From: Poecilobothrus nobilitatus
Lineage: Eukaryota > Arthropoda > Insecta > Diptera > Dolichopodidae
Assembly (NCBI GenBank): GCA_947095535.1
Contig: OX352774.1
Coordinates: 212,152,965-212,216,964, forward strand
Length of the DNA stretch: 64,000 nucleotides
Reading direction: 5' to 3'
The notes under the pieces were generated by a model that did no database searches, was not told the origin of the DNA, and saw only the letters and a list, made by a program, of their open reading frames with translations. Shown one piece after another: positions 4,031 through 61,372 of the stretch; the first letter of the stretch is position 1; each line of letters begins with the position of its first letter. The position numbers and the translations under genes were made by a program.

Positions 4031-5398
4031 GTCGCATGGCTTCGTGTCGATACCCAAACTATATTAACAATACAAAATCATGTAATTACAAAAAATCATC
4101 GTATCAGTATAAGTCAAACAGAGCACAGAATCTGGCAATTGAGAATTCGTGATGTACGTGATACAGATAGAGGATGGTATATGTGCCAAATTAATACAGA
4201 TCCAATGAAGAGTCAAGTTGGTTATTTGGATGTTGTTGGTATGTTCAGTATAAAAAGGAAAAAAAAACAAAAATTTTAATTTCATTAAAAAAATTATATT
4301 TACAATATAAATAAATGTATATATATGTATATATGTATTAAAACTCTATTTTTTGTTTTTTTGTTTTTTTTTTTTTAATTATAAAAAGTTCCTCCTGATA
4401 TAGTTGATAAAGAAACAAGTCATGATATTGTTGTTGAAGAAGGGCATAATGCAACATTAATTTGTACAGCAACAGGTTTACCACCACCAATAATAACATG
4501 GCGACGTGAAAAAGAAAAACCAATTTTATCAAGTGGTAATAAAGAAGTATACAGTATTGAAGGACAATTTTTATTTTTAAGAAATGTTCAACGTCATCAA
4601 ATGGGAGCATATTTATGTATTGCATCAAATGGTATACCACCAACAGTTAGTAAAAGAGTTTTACTAATTGTTAACTGTAAGTTTCAAACATAAATTTAAA
4701 AAAAAAAAAGAAATTTTTTAAATTTACTTTTGATTTGGTTTTAGTTGCACCAACAATTTGGACACCAAATGAAATTATTTATGCACAACCAGGACAAAAA
4801 ATTTTACTTGAATGTGTTAGTGAATCATATCCAACATCAGTTAATTATTGGTTAAAAGAAAAAGAAATAATACAAGGTGGTACATATGAATCGGTAACAT
4901 TAGAAAATATCTTTCGTATTGTTATGAAATTAACAATTCGTCCAATAAAACCAGAAGATTTTGGTGAATATAAATGTGTTGCAAAAAATTCATTGGGTGA
5001 ATCATCAAAAATTATAACGATTTTAGGTGAGTAAAAAAAAAAAAAAAAAATATAAAAAGTAAGTAATTATAAAAAGTTTTTTAAAAATTGTCTTCTTTTT
5101 TTTGTTTTTAATTGGAATTTTAGAAAGAAGAAGAGAAGATGTATTTTTAACAGCACGAGCTAGTGAAGTCATTGATGGTAATAATTTGGCAAATTATCAA
5201 CATGGTAAAAAAAAAATCTTTTTGTTTTTTTTTTTTGAATAATTTTAAGAACTTTTTAAGTGACTTTATAACTAATTGCATTATTTTTTTCTTCCTTTTT
5301 TTTTTTATTTTATAGATATATCTTCAAGTTCTTCCTTAACGTATTCACAAGAACTTTTAAATTTTGTAATATTTTTATTTAGTATTAGTATAGTTTAG
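4031..5398 (+). CDS. DIP-family (Dpr-interacting protein / lachesin-like) Ig cell-adhesion protein, 3' five exons, partial
   Basis: Five exons join in frame: 4031-4238, 4389-4676, 4745-5026, 5124-5204 and 5316-5398, each with AG acceptors and GT donors, giving 313 residues plus TAG. The first exon codes the second half of Ig domain 1, with the core Trp in VAWLRVDTQTIL, the DRGWYMCQI cysteine motif and NTDPMKSQVGYLDVV. This is the characteristic insect DIP sequence. Ig2 (cysteines in LICTATG and GAYLCIASNG) and Ig3 (LLECVSES and GEYKCVAKNSLG) follow. A linker (ERRREDVFLT) and a short Ser-rich stretch lead into a hydrophobic end (LLNFVIFLFSISIV). That end fits a GPI-anchor signal rather than a cytoplasmic tail. 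Signal peptide, start codon and first Cys of Ig1 lie upstream of the window; the phase-0 junction before VAWL fits this. Family members are neuronal surface receptors for Dpr proteins and guide synaptic partner choice. Which DIP paralogue this is cannot be decided here. Confidence 0.92.
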
Positions 5399-9594: not shown

Positions 9595-10602
9595 TCATCG
9601 TCCATTAGTTGCTTTCTTTTGATCCAAATCAACAGTTGATGGTACAGTTGTCGTTGATGTTGAAACTGGTGATGAAGATGGTGATGATGATGATACCGCA
9701 CTTGAAGATGATTCTACATCACCATTAACTACAATTTTTGAATCATTTTGATTTTCTGTATTATTATTTTCATGACCATTTTGTAAAAAATCTGCTTGTG
9801 GATACATATTTGGTGTACAACCATATTCTTTAGCTAATTGATTACGTTGATCATAAATTTCATTAACTAATTTTTGAACAAAATTATGTTCAAATTTTCC
9901 TTCAGTTGAATCAAAAAATTCTTGATGTTTCATTAGACAATTATCACGTTTTTCATATTCGAACGCTTGTAATACCATATCTAAACGATCTAAGTCTTTA
10001 ACGAATTTTGATTCAGGTGATTCACCATTTTCATATTCCTAAAATAATAAAAATAAATAGAAAAATTAATTAAAATAAAATGAAAAAAAAAAAAAAAACA
10101 AAAATGATTCACTGAATAATTAAATTTTTTTTTTTTTTTTTGAAAATTTAATTTTCGGTATAATTTTAAATCAATTCATTTTACTTTAAATAATTTGTTA
10201 TACTAAAATAAACATATTTGACATATATATGTATGTTAAAACAAATATAAACTAACATATATATATAAAAAAAAAAAAAAAATTAAAACAAGGCAAAAAC
10301 CAACTCACCACAAATAATTCCCACATTCTTTTGCCTCTTGGTTCAATTAATTTACAAATTTTTTCCATTGCATCCATTTCCATACGTTTTTTTTCTTCTT
10401 TAGTAACACCACAAAATGGTGTTAAATCACCAACAATACACTCAGCTAAATCATGTACCAATGCTAATTCCATGCATTTTGTTTGATTTAAACCTTCGGT
10501 ACCATCTAATAGGAATGTCATCATTGCCATACGATACATATGACCGGAAATTGATTCACAATTTTTAACATCACGTAATACGAATCCTGTACGTTTGGTG
10601 TG
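9595..10602 (-). CDS. HDDC2: HDDC2 exons 2 and 3: HD-domain 5'-deoxynucleotidase catalytic core and C-terminus
   Basis: Exon 2 runs 10602 to 10309 (98 codons) and exon 3 runs 10038 to 9595 (147 codons plus TGA), joined in phase 0 across a 270-bp intron with a GTGAGT donor. Exon 2 opens HTKRTGFVLRDV and carries the HD metal-site pieces: His in SGHMYRM (about residue 108, counted from the Met at 49203), His-Asp in ALVHDLAE (137-138) and GDLTPFCGV. Exon 3 supplies the last acidic ligand region (KFVKDLDRLDMVLQAFEYE). This order is that of the HDDC2/YfbR-like family, which dephosphorylates deoxynucleoside 5'-monophosphates in a divalent-metal-dependent way. The residue before the first His is Gly where the family usually has Asp; this is not a metal ligand. 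The tail after the domain is Asn/Ser/Thr-rich and probably disordered. The first exon lies at 48943 and above. Confidence 0.93.
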
Positions 10603-46402: not shown

Positions 46403-48942
46403 TAATAAGTTTTAGAATTTTCTTTGTATTTTTATTGTTTGGTTTACCCCAGAATTCTTTATAAAGTATTTCAAATTAAAGTATTTTTAAAAATATTATT
46501 AATTTAGAATGCAGTAAATTTTTGCAAAATGTAAATATGTTTGTCGCATTAAAAAAACCCTAAGTTGCTCAGTAATATCATGATTCAACCAATGTTATAC
46601 AAAAAAAAAATTACAATTTAGATAAGACCTACTTATTCCTTTTTTAAATGTTAATCCTCCAATTTTATTTACTTGATATTTAAAAAATAATTCGGAGAAA
46701 TTTTATAGTCAGTTACAAAATCATGGAATAACTATACGTATGTATGTTATGTAAATCATGGAATATACGTATGTAAAATATGATTTTGAATTCGTGTAGG
46801 ATTTTCGAAATTAGTCGATAATCAAAATTCCGCGTCGATTTATTTAAAAAATAAGTACATACTTAATTTTTTATTCAAGATTTTTTTTCAGCAAATTTTT
46901 TTGTCCTGAGCTTTTTTCGGAAAATCGGAATGCTCCCAGTGGTAATAAAATGTGCAACAATAGAATTTTATATACATATAACATACATAAATACTGTTGA
47001 AATTGTGTAATATTTGTGATTTTCGTTGTAAGACGCTATTTCATAAAAAACTTTTATCAACACTTTTATTATGTAAAACTAGCTAAAAATATGTTAAGAC
47101 AATATTAAGTCATTCAAAGCAATTTAATACTATTATAACAGATTTAACCCAAATTTTGGTATCTTCAAATCTTACAAAAATTATATGCCTAAAAAAATTT
47201 CTATTTATTTTATTAATATGTATTTTATAAAAGAATTTATAAATAAATTAATTGCATCTATAAAAATGTTCATTGTTATATTATATGTATTTAAATTTTC
47301 ACTATGAACCTATAAATATTTCGCTGAATGTATTAATGTTGTTAGCTGTTATTTCTTAACAAAAAAATTTTTATTTAAAAATAGAGTTTCGTTATTTTTC
47401 TATACTAAATAAAAAAAAAAAACAATTTGAATGTGTATATAAATATGATGTATGTGTGCATGAAAGTAACAATGTAATAATATAAATATATAGAAAAAGA
47501 AAAGAACTATGATTTTTTTTTTTTTTCATTATTTACTTTTACTTAAATTTATGAAGTTATGAACCATAATTTTATCGATCAAATTTTTCTTTTTAACAAG
47601 AATTTCAATAACGTTTATGGTTTATAGTTTTACTCTATTTCTATAGTGTATTCGTTCAGTGGTTGTTACTGGTTAACAATTAAATATGAATATCAAGGAC
47701 ACAAATTACTTGAAAAAGGATAAAATAAACAAACAGAGCTTTATTTTGATTATTTGTATTTAGTATTCATGTTGTTCTTTATCTATTTTTAGAGGTAATC
47801 ATTTCTAAAAAAAAAAATAATTAAAAACAATAATTTTCTGAATTATGTATAACTAGAAGCATTTTTGTAATTATATAATAATAATAATAACAACAAATTA
47901 AATTATTAAATTTTGTCTTCTTTTTCTGGTTAAACAAAACAAAACAAAATAAGTGGTCGTTTGTCTAACAAAGAGAATTTTTTTTCAATCTTTATTTTTA
48001 GATTTTCCACTTTTTTCTTTTTATTTTTTCGAATTTTTTTTTTTTTTTTTTAGTTTTTTTTAATTCTCTTCGTAAACTCTTTGGAAAAAAATTTTAACAA
48101 TAATAATAGTAAAGAACAAAGAATTCAAGGTTAAAAATTTCATTCAAAAAATTACTTAGTACCTATATTATATTAACGAAAAATCGATAATTACTTACAT
48201 ACTATTTACTTATCTTATTTATTTATTATTCAATAATAACTTTTTTTAAATATTTTCCCCGAATTTTTATTAATTTTATGTAAATTTATTTTTCTACTTA
48301 TACCTATCTTCTATTTTTAAATTGAACAAAAGAAAATAATAATAAAAACTAGAAAATTAAATAAATACTCTTGAAATACTTGAAGTTGAAATGCATATAT
48401 GAACATAGAAGAATGATTTTAAGTGTTTAACCTCAAGTATGTATATTATATTTTTTTTTTTTGTTTTGTTGTTTTTACTTGAGTTGAAAATCGAATTTCA
48501 ATATGAAGATATTTTTATGAAGATTTTATAGTTACTTTCAGGTATAAATTTCTATATATGTATATATATTTTAAAACTTTATGATAAAGTATATACATAT
48601 TTAACTTTTAATTTTTAAAATTAATCAATGACCTTGAAAATGCGGCATCTACATAATATTATATTTAATCATATTTAAATTCTTAATATTCAATCAAGTA
48701 ACAAATTAATTACATTTTCTACTTTCTTTTTATTTTAAACATTTATTTTAGATTTTAAGGTTTTAATTCTGAGAAACTTTTCAAAACCATCTAAAAAATT
48801 TATAATCCAAAATATCCTTATGATATTTTAACAAAAATATCATATTATATAATAAAAATAACATTACAAACATTTAATATTGATTAAATTTCATTAACCT
48901 AGATAATCTAAAAATAAAAGAATTAAAAAGCTCAAAACTTAC

Positions 48943-49203
48943 TTTTAATCCACCAACAAGTTCCAAAAATTGAATAATATCACCTAAACTAGATTTGAAA
49001 CAAGATCCTTTTTCATGTTTTTCTATATTATTGAGTGTATTTTTTTCATTTCCCGGTGGTGATGATGATGATGATGAAATTCCACTACCACCAACAGCTG
49101 AAGGATTACCACAACTTGATAATTCTTTAGTTATTGAATCATTTTTTGATGTATTTCCCTTGGAAATATCGATTGGAGGTTGTTCTGTTGCAACTTTAGA
49201 CAT
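48943..49203 (-). CDS. HDDC2: HDDC2 exon 1, conserved part
   Basis: From the Met at 49203 (a good A at -3: AACAAAATG) the exon codes 87 residues. They run from a low-complexity start (MSKVATEQPPIDIS, then Ser/Gly/Pro runs) to LGDIIQFLELVGGLK. A GTAAGT donor follows at 48942, phase 0. The ending matches the family's N-terminal helix (FL.LVG.LK) and reads directly into HTKRTGFVLRDV of the exon at 10602, phase 0. No other candidate first exon was found between. The short protein is then 332 residues (87+98+147). The human protein is about 204, the excess being the disordered ends. The gene's span is therefore about 40.5 kb. Confidence 0.88.
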
Positions 49204-50073
49204 TTTGTTATTTATATTTAAAATAATATTTGTTGTATTATCACCCTTTAGAAAATTTTTAATTTTTAAACATTTACTAATAAAATTAGCACCAAATTTA
49301 TTTGCACTATAAAATTTACTCTCTATATTTTTATTATTATTTTCAGCTAATATTATTGTAGCTAAATCTTTATTAAATTTTTGAATTGAATTTATATCGT
49401 TCTCGCTGCTGTTCAATACTATATTTAAATTGAAACTAAAATAATTTTCAAATGAATTTATATTATTTATAAATTTTATGATGAAATTGTTAAAAAGATT
49501 TATACAACTTTCAACTTTAAATATAAAAAAATCACTGTCAGAATATTGTAAAAGTTTCCTCGTGTTATTTGGATTTCGTATACAATGAAAATTTATATTT
49601 TTTTGACATATCATCATAAGATTATAATATAGTTGTATAGCATTTTGACTTGTTATCATCAATGAAGCTTTTATATGGTGTGGTCGTTGATATAATTTTT
49701 GAAATTGATTATATTTATTACTAGCTATTGTTATATATTGTGTTGTAGAAGTAGAATTATTATAAATATTAAAAATAGCTTTTATTGTATTGGAAAGAAA
49801 AGAATGTTCTGCATCATTGATAGTAAACAGCTGTTTTAAAATTGATGGTACCTTATGTTGGTGATTTTTCCGATTCAAAACATAGTAATGATTTTCTTTT
49901 TTCTGATATTTTTCCAATTGACTAGAATATTTGAGATTTTTATTTTCATATTCCATCATTTTAAATGCATTAACATTGTTAGTTAGAGGTAAAGTTGTTA
50001 AAATAAATTTTACGCGATCAACTTTTAATTGAAACATTCTTAATGTGATTGAAATCTTTTTGATATTCATCAT
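49204..50073 (-). CDS. Candidate 290-residue N-terminal extension of HDDC2 exon 1, unknown
   Basis: The frame of HDDC2 exon 1 stays open upstream of the conserved Met from 49204 to the first ATG at 50073; an in-frame TAG follows about 20 codons further upstream. At this base composition a stop is expected about every ten codons, so roughly 290 open codons are unlikely by chance. The peptide is Asn/Ile/Lys/Tyr-rich, begins MMNIKKISITLRMFQLKVDR (basic, hydroxylated, possibly mitochondrial presequence-like) and has no domain I recognise. It could be translated as a 622-residue long isoform. It could also be an upstream coding sequence now fused or decaying, or an unusually open 5' UTR. The Met at 49203 remains a plausible start for the conserved protein. 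Confidence 0.5.
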
Positions 50074-51210
50074 GATAAAGTGATTTGAATTCAAAACAAT
50101 AAATAAAGCAATGATTATAAAATTTTTCTAAAAGCAAATCTTGTTAAAGTAATTTAATTTTTGATATCTTTAATTATCCCAAATAATGCTTTTGAAACCC
50201 TTTTTCTGTTCTTCTATATAAGCGTATTACGTTTTCTTGACATTTTTGGAATTAAAAAAATATTGTACTAATCCTTTTCAATTCTTCTACTTTGTATCCA
50301 AATTAGTGTTACAAATAATAGAGCACAACCTTTGTCTTCTCCAAATTAAATATTAAAACTAAATAATAATAACTTACAATACAAGAAATAAATTTGATCA
50401 TTGCTCATATAAATATTTAAAATATTTAATTAATTGTTTCTCCAATTATTCCATTTTCCTAAAAATTTTTTTATTTTAATGTTAACACAACCACTACCCA
50501 TTCTATTCTGGTATGGTAATATTAAAAACAAATTGAATAATTTTCATTTCTTTTTATGTTAACACTTTTATGTTTTTAATTAAATTAATTTAACTAAAGT
50601 ATTTAAAGCAACATTTTAATATATTTATACACATCGCGCACTATCAAATCCAATCAAATCATTCCATTCTTAAAATAATTCTTTGTTTTTACTTTTTGTA
50701 AAGTTAAATTTTCTTTAAAATGTCAATATCACATGTTTACCACAAAAAAAAATGCCCGCTTAAAGAAATCTACTTCAAAAATGATCCGTCAGATAGCGCT
50801 TACAACTATATACAATAAATTAATATAATTTTGAAATGAAATAGAAAAATCCTTCGATTTATTACTTACGTAATAATTAATTAAAATATATATACATTAT
50901 AAAAAAAGCTAATAAAATTTAAAAAATTTTAACATAATTATTTATTACTTCATTCATTATTTAATTAATTCTCTACTTTGTTATCCAATTTTAGTGTTAC
51001 TACTTCTTCTCAATAATGGCGCTTTAATATGTTAAATAAATAAAACTGATAAAAGCTTTTCTTGAGTAATTGACTTGACAGCAATTTGACAATTGACACT
51101 AGAATAAAAAGGTGAAATCATCTCGAATTTTATTTATTTTGTTCAAGTTAACAAAATACAATAGTATTATTTATATAATAAAAAGAAAACTTTTATCAGA
51201 ACAAAGAAAA
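50074..51210. promoter_or_regulatory. Head-to-head intergenic region between HDDC2 and the Ku80-CTD triplet gene
   Basis: HDDC2 reads left and the triplet gene reads right, so both promoters must lie in these 1.1 kb. I see no clear TATA or initiator above background. AT-rich throughout, with no coding sequence. Sharing of control elements is possible but not shown. Confidence 0.5.
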
Positions 51211-52664
51211 ATGGCTTCCAAACAGGTAATTAAAATAAATTATCACTAATTATATTGGGCAGTTCTTGTCGGCATTATAGTTAATGATGTCATTCTATTT
51301 TTTAGGAAAGCGGTGATTCAAAACAACTTATCATTGGTGAAAAAACACCGGCTGAAGATTTTCAAAAATTAATTAAAAAACATGTTGAAGAATGCGATGA
51401 TGATGAAATGAAAGCATCGAATTTTGAAAAATACAGTGAAGAAATACGCAAAATCATAAATTCAATGTTATTCAAAGCAACACCAACAACAGAAACACCA
51501 AAAGAAAAAATCCAAAAAACCTTAAAAGTATATCGTGAGGAAGCATGTTTTTATAATCCGTATGATTATAATGATTGGATCAAAGAAATTAAAAAAAAAT
51601 TAATTGAAAAACAAATGTTGGATGTATGGGAAAATGTAATTGTTAAAAATCAATTAGGCTTATTATGGGCCAGAGATTGTGATTTTTTTGATGATATGGA
51701 AGATAAAGAACCGATCGAATTTTATAAAATTAAAGAACATAAGAAAGAAGCTTCACCTGCAAAGGATGGTGCTAGTAAGAGGATGAAATTAAGTGAAGAA
51801 AAAAAATCAGAGAAGCCTCTAAAAATAACATCAGCAGATCATTATTGTAAATTAGTTAAAGAAAATGTGGAAGAAATTGATCCAGATGAAGATGATAAAA
51901 AAATGGATATATTTGATGACTTAAGTGAACAAGTACGAAATCTTTTAACAGATTCAATACTTAAATCAACTTCTTTTGATTATAATAAAATTTCAAGAGA
52001 CTTAAAATTGTACAGAGATAAAGCATGCTTTTTTAATCCATATGATTACAACGATTGGATTAAAGAGATTAAAATTAAACTTTTACAAAAAGAAATGCAT
52101 GAGTGTTGGGATAAAGTTATTGTTAAAAATGAATTAGGTTTATTATGGGCTAAAGATTGTGATTTGTTTGATGATATGGATGATGATGAACCAGAAAAAT
52201 TTTATAAAATTGTTTCAGCATCGGATAAAAATAATAAAAAACCAAAAGTTTTAGATAAAGTTGGAATTGAAACGCCAGCTAAAGATTATGAATATTTGAT
52301 AAAAGAGCAAGTTGAAGAGATTGATCCAGATCGAGAATATCAAAAAATGGATATATTTGATGAATTAAGTAAACAAATACAAAATATAATTTCACAATTA
52401 CTTTTCAATAAAGAAAAACCAGAAATCGAAAAAGTTACTGAAGCAATTAAAGTTTATAGAGAAAAAGCTTGCTTTTTTAATCCATATGATTATAATGATT
52501 GGATTGTAGATATTAAAGAAGAATTAATAGAAAAAAAAATGATTGACTTTTGGGAAAATGTTATTGTTAAAAATAAATTTGGTTTATTATGGGCAAGAGA
52601 TTGCGATTTCTTTGATGATATGGATGATGAAGAACCAGAAAAATTTTATAAAATTGAAAAATAA
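51211..52664 (+). CDS. Standalone protein of three tandem Ku80 C-terminal (PK-binding) domains
   Basis: Exon 1 (51211-51225, MASKQ) and exon 2 (51306-52664) join in phase 0, giving 457 residues and TAA. Three repeats of about 128 residues fill the protein: 19-147, 180-307 and 328-457. Each starts TPAEDF/TSADHY/TPAKDY, passes a helical region and YREEACF-type motif, then has the invariant NPYDYNDWI, VIVKN, GLLWA(R/K)DCD and FDDM blocks and ends FYKI. The same architecture, with NPYDYNDF and VIVKNHLGLL, forms residues 592-720 of the Ku80 encoded 6.2 kb downstream, and aligns with the helical Ku80 C-terminal domain (Ku_PK_bind). Linker 1 is basic (SKRMKL, a weak nuclear signal). The vWA domain, Ku core and acidic end tail are absent. 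The domain in Ku80 contacts DNA-PKcs; a multivalent binding or competing role is inference. AATAAAG near 52790 is a likely poly-A signal. Confidence 0.9.
51345..51731 (+). repeat. Coding repeat R1 (Ku80-CTD-like domain 1)
   Basis: Residues 19-147. Key motifs are TPAEDFQKLI, VYREEACFYNPYDYNDWI, WENVIVKNQLGLLWARDCD and FDDM. The longest inter-helix insert (ATPTTETPKEK) is in this copy. Confidence 0.85.
51828..52211 (+). repeat. Coding repeat R2 (Ku80-CTD-like domain 2)
   Basis: Residues 180-307. TSADHYCKLV replaces the usual TPA.D start. LYRDKACFFNPYDYNDWI and WDKVIVKNELGLLWAKDCD are intact. Confidence 0.85.
52272..52661 (+). repeat. Coding repeat R3 (Ku80-CTD-like domain 3)
   Basis: Residues 328-457. 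TPAKDYEYLI and KVYREKACFFNPYDYNDWI are present, as is GLLWARDCDFFDDM. It shares the EEIDPD.....KMDIFD segment with R2, so R2 and R3 look like the latest duplication. It ends FYKIEK at the stop, with no acidic DDL tail. Confidence 0.85.
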
Positions 52665-58912: not shown

Positions 58913-61372
58913 ATGGCGCAAAAGGTAAAACTAAATTTAAATATATATATTTTAATATTTCCATTAATTTTTATTTATTTTAGGAAGGTATGGTTGTAAT
59001 ATTAGATGTTTCTAAAACAACTAGAAATTCTAGTAAAACTAACGATAAAACATTCTTTGAGAAACAAAAAGAATGCTGTATAAAACTATTACAACAGAAA
59101 GTAAATTTTTTTAAACCTTTTCTTTAAATTTAAATGAAAAATACATTTTTTTTTTTAGATTTTTGCTGACAAAAAAGATGAAGTAGCCTTTCTTTTAATG
59201 GGAACAGAAAATACTGATAATGAATTGAATAGAAATCTTGATGGTTACGAGAATATTGTTGAAGGAATTTCTATGCAAATACCTAATTGGAATATTTTAA
59301 CTTCACTTGTTAATTCAATTGATTTAGAGAATGGATCAGATACTGTAGATTGGATGGATAGTGTTGTTATAGCATTGGATATGTTGAGACGAGAAGAGTA
59401 AATTAAATTATTAATTTAAATAAGTAACATTTAAGTTAAATGAATGTAATTTTATAGAGCTAAGCGGTTTAAATATGTAAAAATTGTGTTATTTCATCAG
59501 TTTTTATATTCTGTTGATGATACTACTACAGAAGAAGTCGTCCAACGTTTAAAGGATGTAAATGCAGAACTTGTTATAATGTAAGAATAAAAATAAAAAC
59601 AATAATTTATATTATTATTAATTCATTTTAGAAATCATAACATAAAGTACAAAGATGATGTTGAAACAAAGCTACCAAAACCGTTCTTCGCAAATTCAAG
59701 CAAATTGTGTAAAAGCATATATCAAATAATGTCTGAAAAATTAGCTGTTAAACTGATCGAAGAAACAGATGGTATATTGTGTAATTTTGATATTGCACTA
59801 TCTCGTATAATACAAGGTGTTAAACCTAAAGGTCGTCCATGGTTTTGGTATTCAACACTAGATATTGGTAGTAAAGTTAAAATTTCTATTGGTGTTACAA
59901 TAAGCATTAAACCGGAAGCTGCATTTAAATTTAAAACCCAAAGTGTAAATCCTAATTCAGTTTGTTGGTTGGCTACCGAATATTTTGAAAATGGCGAAAA
60001 AATTATGAGTTCTTCGTCCATTAAAAATGACATGGCAGAAGATAGAGTTTATGAAAATGATAAGGAAAAAGAAGAATTTTCAATCGAAGACTTAATTAAT
60101 GGGTATATGTTAGGATCAACTCCAATACCATATGAAAAATCATTACCATTAACTAAACAATGCATGCAATGTATAAGTTTTACACAAAGATCAAATGTAT
60201 TACCACAATATTTTATTGGTAGTGGAACATATTTAGTTTTCGCTAGACCAACAATGGCAGCATCTGAAAAGATGATGGCTGCTTTAGTTGAAGCACTTGT
60301 TAGAAAAGATTTAGTTATGATAGGTCGTCGTGTATATCGGGATGGATTTCGACCAAAATTTATTGCTCTTTTTCCAAATACAGAACAAAAATATCCATGT
60401 TTAACTTTGTTTGAATTACATTGCGCTGAACAACAAGTTAATTGGTATTTCCCAACTTTGAATTCTAAAAAAACCGAACCAACTGAAGAACAATATAATG
60501 CTGTTGAAGAATTAATCAGTTCTATGAATCTTGATAGTTCTTCATATTTAAATTGCGAAATTGAACGAGAACAATATGAAAAAGATTTATTGCCATTAAA
60601 TTGTTTACCAAATGTTACAAATGAATATGTTTGTCATGTTGCAACTGAACGAATTATTGAAGAATCTAATGATATAACACTTTCTATACAAGGAAGAGAT
60701 AATATTTTGAATGTACCAGATGAATTATATAAAAGATCACAAGGACCATTGGAAAAAATTAAAGAACTTTTCCCATTAGAAGAAATCAAAAAAGAAGTTA
60801 AAAAAGAATTAATACGACATATGGGAAATATTGATAGCCGAGAAGCAGATAATGAAATAATCATTGAAGATAAGCCTTTAGATTATAAAGCATTAATATC
60901 AGTTGGAACTGTAACACCAGCTGAAGATTATAAACAATTAATAAAACAGGAAATAGAAGATTTAAGCGGTGATAGACAAGAAGAAAAAATCATATTATTT
61001 GATAAATTAGCAAAACAAATTCAAGAAGTTTTAACAGATTTAATATTTAAAACTATAACAATACAGTATGAGAAAATTGTAAGAGCAATAAAAGTATATC
61101 GTGATGAAGCAGCTCTTTATAATCCATATGATTATAATGATTTTATTCGAGAAATAAAATATATGATTGGTTGCCGTAAAATGTATGAATTTTGGGAAGA
61201 AGTTATTGTTAAAAATCATTTAGGTTTATTATCATCAAAAGAATCAAATCTATTTAACGAAATGAATGATGTTAATGATGTTGAAGAATTTTATCAAATT
61301 AATGTTGAAAAATTAATAGATATTGCTGATAATAATGATGAAAATATTGATGATTTGTTTGATGACATGTAA
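58913..61372 (+). CDS. XRCC5: Ku80 (XRCC5), DNA end-binding subunit of Ku, complete
   Basis: Five exons: 58913-58924, 58984-59100, 59159-59397, 59458-59580 and 59632-61372, all GT-AG, giving 743 residues (human Ku80 is 732). Residues 1 to about 225 form the vWA-like domain (MVVILDVSK, VDWMDSVVIALDML, VKIVLFHQF). About 229-510 is the Ku core (KPKGRPWFWYSTL, LGSTPIPYEKSLPL, SGTYLVFARPTMAASEKMMA, RRVYRDGFRPKF). A helical linker follows, and then at 592-720 the C-terminal PK-binding domain (TPAEDYKQLI, NPYDYNDF, VIVKNHLGLL). The last residues NIDDLFDDM match the acidic DDL tail that recruits DNA-PKcs. With Ku70, the protein rings broken DNA ends and starts non-homologous end joining in the nucleus. 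The short first exon and phase-0 junction resemble those of the triplet gene upstream. AATAAA motifs near 61485 and 61610 may end the transcript. Confidence 0.96.

Follow-up and report, generated by a model that had tools for sequence, protein, structure and literature searches.

A 64,000-nucleotide stretch of the Poecilobothrus nobilitatus genome (assembly GCA_947095535.1, contig OX352774.1, positions 212,152,965 to 212,216,964; hereafter the window, with a G+C content of 22.6%) harbors a gene whose product consists of three tandem domains resembling the C-terminal domain of Ku80. With a probability of roughly 85%, we consider it most likely to be a three-domain orthologue of EndoGI, i.e. a predicted inhibitor that plugs the active sites of the nuclease EndoG; we infer the binding, inhibition, stoichiometry and localisation described below. 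That EndoGI is a free-standing tandem of such domains was known already, while the three-domain form and the neighborhood of Ku80 are new. What looked like a puzzling triple DNA-PKcs-binding protein would thus be recast as a three-headed nuclease inhibitor for a two-site target.

Gene structure and domain content

A sequence-only reading of this DNA had proposed a two-exon gene of 457 residues at 51211-52664, made up of three tandem copies of the Ku80 C-terminal domain with no Ku core and no vWA domain, and the gene model and profile search bear this out. Both exon borders are GT..AG and the spliced product is 457 aa long. Pfam identified Ku_PK_bind (PF08785, 9.7e-32) in three stretches of it, corresponding to the domains D1, D2 and D3 (Table 1), of which residues 352-454 in D3 are the strongest. 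No family besides PF08785 scored above the Pfam cut-off in this protein, Ku core and vWA thus being absent; the sub-threshold entries were Dynamin_M (0.013), PTHB1_hp, GAT and DUF1233. The C-terminal end reads FYKIEK, and no DDLL-type acidic tail follows the helical domain.

Relationship to Drosophila EndoGI

The top PDB match of the protein was 3ISM chain C, i.e. Drosophila EndoGI (CG4930), at an E-value of 1.1e-51, with human Ku80 matching at 3e-6. The same chain was the sole Foldseek match at E<=0.001, and is hence the nearest PDB entry in both sequence and fold. The sequence-only reading knew of no described free-standing tandem form of the domain, a claim that falls with EndoGI, which is exactly such a tandem and largely retains the signature loop in both its domains. 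It has two domains (two matching stretches in 3ISM chain C), whereas the Poecilobothrus protein has three, and the Poecilobothrus gene adjoins Ku80, which we note as a possible further difference. The Ku80 C-terminal domain (1q2z, 1rw2; XRCC5) likewise has domain family and fold in common with the three-domain protein, but it occurs as a single copy after Ku_N and the Ku core, and in the three Ku80s from flies and a midge that were compared an acidic tail comes next.

One point on the other side has to be met here, namely that the C-terminal domain of the same fly's Ku80 also has 3ISM_C as its best PDB match (1.3e-22). The match alone can therefore not tell EndoGI from Ku80, and the discriminating evidence sits at residue level. 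For this we compared 24 EndoGI domains, including the three from Poecilobothrus, after removal of four rows (two near-identical Eurosta copies and two degenerate domains of a Musca autumnalis protein of 646 aa); P0010-P0012, three of the 12 homologues, entered neither the domain alignment nor this comparison. Seven of the 22 conserved EndoGI columns, namely F395, W404, W434, A435, D439, D442 and P449, differ from the Ku80 of Poecilobothrus and Condylostylus, and all seven are present in each of the three copies. W434, A435, D439, D442 and P449 are absent from all four Ku80s compared, while the Ku80 of Clunio has W404 and the human one F395. From W434 onward the alignment runs along human Ku80 from residue 687, and prediction and docking have marked out residues 687-693 of the human protein as the ones that face EndoG (PMC13086865).

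Conservation, selection and domain number

The architecture recurs in a related insect, Condylostylus longicornis, whose uncharacterized LOC129615929 (P0001) is 462 aa long, has three domains and is 61% identical over the full length. Positional partners in the two species share 70% (D1), 66% (D2) and 68% (D3) identity, as compared with 46-63% for the non-positional pairings and 49-57% for the domains within each protein. Since positional partners are more alike than the other pairings, the triplication most likely predates the split of the Poecilobothrus and Condylostylus lineages.

In their DNA, D1, D2 and D3 are mutually 67-73% identical, and nonsynonymous divergence (dN) was below synonymous divergence (dS) in all six pairs formed by the three domains and the fly's Ku80 domain, e.g. 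dN 0.30 and dS 0.87 for D1-D3, and dN 0.31 and dS 0.48 for D2-D3. These pairs are old paralogues in AT-rich DNA and show purifying selection in broad terms only, which agrees with the selection on all three copies proposed earlier. On both counts the domains do not represent recent duplicates or a repeat that collapsed in assembly; together with the position-by-position match in Condylostylus, this rules out an assembly artefact or a recent tandem copy.

Domain number varies among EndoGI proteins. A 712-aa protein of Eurosta solidaginis (P0002) contains a two-domain EndoGI repeated almost exactly, and since the repeat includes the start, it probably represents two fused gene copies. The Musca autumnalis protein (P0003, 646 aa) has four domains, two of which are degenerate.

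Partner genes and alternative readings

An EndoG gene was found in the same genome by a PF01223 search (10 matches from 14 candidates), its best exon (L003) being identical to Drosophila EndoG (3ism_A) in 153 of 197 aligned columns. Besides EndoG, this search gave nine further DNA/RNA non-specific endonuclease matches, counted as exons and not genes (L004-L010 and two without a locus), three of which lie on contig C8 within open frames 387-398 codons long. DNA-PKcs is represented by one PF08163 match at 1.7e-83 (L011, G000:C2:235053776-235054972); it contains three stop codons, which may be introns, and a 300-aa open frame alone matches at 3.3e-49. A fly related to Condylostylus thus has DNA-PKcs alongside a Ku80 that retains its acidic tail. 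Absence of DNA-PKcs had been expected to serve as an argument against an adaptor role, and was dropped since the gene is present. With both genes there, the presence of partners does not decide between EndoG and DNA-PKcs.

The DNA-PKcs gene is one of several points that weigh against an EndoGI assignment. Another is the branching order of the domain trees (32 and 28 sequences, 139 columns), which is unsettled: with the 28-sequence tree, the approximately unbiased (AU) test rejected none of five constrained hypotheses (p 0.135 to 0.575). Among those tolerated were one that places the three-domain protein's domains beside fly Ku80 and away from schizophoran EndoGI (p 0.362), and one that dates EndoGI to before the midge split (p 0.305). 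To the same side belong the linkers of the four-domain Musca autumnalis protein (29, 2 and 34 residues), which make linker length no firm guide, and the finding that, on several DNA substrates, DNA-PK is activated with the help of the helical bundle of human Ku80 and without need of the extreme C-terminus (PMC4433226), because of which a missing acidic tail does not rule out DNA-PKcs as partner. As for the trees themselves, the unconstrained ones render the Ku80s of Poecilobothrus and Condylostylus paraphyletic; taken literally this must be wrong, and it shows how little 139 columns can resolve. In both trees, D1 of Poecilobothrus and D1 of Condylostylus cluster with all schizophoran EndoGI domains used, at a support of 99. 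The three-domain proteins as one clade are excluded by the bootstrap proportion (bp-RELL) and expected likelihood weight (c-ELW) criteria, and tolerated by the Kishino-Hasegawa (KH), Shimodaira-Hasegawa (SH) and AU tests (AU p 0.135).

The sequence-only reading had pictured a multivalent adaptor or competitor of DNA-PKcs, or of another PIKK, that acts apart from DNA-bound Ku. Its idea of multivalent blocking fits our results, while EndoG is better supported than DNA-PKcs as the target. A DNA-PKcs adaptor would be in line with the domain family, which is that of the Ku80 C-terminus, with the gene identified above and with the human activation data. We nevertheless find it improbable and set it aside as the main reading, because the acidic tail retained in the fly's Ku80 is missing from the three-domain protein, which leans one way without being proof, and because all three copies have EndoGI columns that this Ku80 lacks. 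Moreover, the closest characterised relative binds EndoG (PMC13086865) and exists in D. melanogaster, a species reported to be without DNA-PKcs (PMC6849265). There is a similarly slim chance of a dual specificity, in which EndoG inhibition would be kept and competition with the Ku80 C-terminal domain at shared partners added. D1-D3 share 43-47% identity with the fly's own Ku80 domain, which speaks for it, and partners may overlap, as a fragment of human Ku80 (residues 384-732) binds EndoG with a dissociation constant of 72.7 nM according to a 2026 report (PMC13086865); the conserved differences in the signature loop argue instead for a diverged interface. That the gene is a decaying or non-functional duplicate is hardly credible, given an open frame spanning 452 codons, the excess of dS over dN in every pair and a full-length three-domain relative in another genus.

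Linkers and a possible mode of inhibition

Under the EndoGI reading, the spacing of the domains bears on how the protein would engage its target. The D1-D2 linker has 30 residues in Poecilobothrus and 42 in Condylostylus, and the D2-D3 gap, which has no equivalent in the two-domain Drosophila protein, 18 and 15 residues, respectively. In six two-domain relatives the linkers measure 44-78 residues, and in Eurosta 42-48. The D1-D2 linker contains the motif KRMKL in Poecilobothrus and KRIKL in Condylostylus, a resemblance in motif only, which we take to be akin to the nuclear localisation signal of c-Myc. In work of 2009 that goes under the names of Temme and Loll, two EndoGI domains are said to bind one EndoG dimer, one over each active site, and EndoGI is reportedly nuclear; the latter of the two is also said to have placed the active sites far apart on the dimer.

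EndoG would exit the mitochondria when cells die or in small quantities, and would then meet an inhibitor that is likely nuclear (KR[MI]KL would fit) and covers each of the two active sites of the EndoG dimer with one domain. If the active sites are remote from each other, D2 and D3 are unlikely to span one dimer, because the linker between them is short. Set against the 44-78 residues in two-domain relatives, this short linker suggests that one dimer would be held by D1 paired with either D2 or D3, leaving a third head free, which may then catch a second EndoG dimer.

Neighboring Ku80 and the origin of the gene

The Ku80 gene begins 6.2 kb downstream of the three-domain gene on the same strand. 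It has five predicted exons and the Pfam domains Ku_N, Ku and Ku_PK_bind, and Condylostylus Ku80 is 67% identical to its product over 100%. Ku80 ends in IDDLFDDM in Poecilobothrus, IDDLFNDM in Condylostylus and IDDLL in Clunio. No further gene is apparent between the two loci, where the open frames, from a list read by eye, reach at most 106 aa. A PF08785 search of the whole genome (943.8 Mb, 84 contigs), which could miss a diverged copy, led from eight scored candidates to two places only, i.e. the three-domain gene and Ku80. As the sole other match found in the genome thus is this closely neighboring Ku80 gene, the data suggest that EndoGI derived from the 3' end of Ku80, the direction from Ku80 to EndoGI being one that we infer. 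The first exons are also alike, encoding MAQK in Ku80 and MASKQ in the three-domain gene; both are tiny, with a phase-0 intron directly behind the fourth or fifth codon, which hints weakly at a common start. Most simply, the start and the 3' end of Ku80 would have been brought together in a local duplication, and the domain would then have been amplified. In blastn comparisons of the EndoGI and Ku80 loci, strong matches were confined to the coding domain, the rest being short and AT-rich, so that no shared flanking DNA was seen, and a tblastn search of the rest of the window gave no remnant of the Ku core.

The two genes may also be linked in other flies. In Condylostylus, the three-domain protein and Ku80 are each listed on a contig sized 7,587,712, and since both listings give this figure, the genes are almost surely on one contig. 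In Drosophila, a network of spatially co-located genes assigns EndoGI and ku80 to the same cluster, tied to longevity (PMC6932890), which hints at linkage there without giving the gene order. No report of a three-domain form or of a descent of EndoGI from Ku80 was found in the open-licence literature, as judged by titles, abstract openings and passages on EndoGI.

Poecilobothrus thus is a fly with Ku80, DNA-PKcs, EndoG and EndoGI together, and the proximity of EndoGI and Ku80 suggests a source for the apoptotic nuclease inhibitor. Control of EndoG may even be an old property of the Ku80 C-terminal domain, which would provide a context for the human Ku80-EndoG report (PMC13086865). A joint scenario would have the 3' end of Ku80 duplicated alongside in an ancestral fly, a latent EndoG binding of the tail domain sharpened into an inhibitor, and, in this lineage, a version with three heads, the spare one joining EndoG dimers into larger inactive complexes; taken as a whole, we regard this as tentative and rather doubtful.

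Table 1. Features of the three-domain gene and of Ku80 (positions in the window)
Feature	Position	Strand	Remarks
Three-domain EndoGI gene, exon 1	51211-51225	+	MASKQ, then phase-0 GT..AG intron
Three-domain EndoGI gene, exon 2 including stop codon	51306-52664	+	452 residues; holds all three domains
Domain 1 (D1)	51336..51728	+	residues about 16-146; PF08785, limits from alignment
EndoGI signature loop, D1 (WARDCDFFDDMED)	51666..51704	+	conserved columns
KRMKL basic motif, D1-D2 linker	51777..51791	+	resembles nuclear localisation signal
Domain 2 (D2)	51819..52208	+	residues about 177-306; PF08785, alignment
EndoGI signature loop, D2 (WAKDCDLFDDMDD)	52146..52184	+	conserved columns
Domain 3 (D3)	52263..52652	+	residues about 325-454; PF08785, alignment
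EndoGI signature loop, D3 (WARDCDFFDDMDD)	52590..52628	+	conserved columns
Ku80 gene	58913..61372	+	exons 58913-58924, 58984-59100, 59159-59397, 59458-59580, 59632-61372; 743 aa
Ku80 C-terminal domain and linker	60896..61345	+	domain without EndoGI signature
Acidic Ku80 tail IDDLFDDM	61346..61369	+	absent from three-domain protein

Other features of the window

A gene with an HD domain (HD_3, PF13023) lies on the minus strand at 9595-10602, with a possible further part at about 49000-49300. The frame 48874-50127, which gave no Pfam match, could hold its first exon, implying an intron of about 38 kb with a junction placed by reading alone. Lastly, an exon with an immunoglobulin domain (Ig_3, I-set) is found at 4681-5034.
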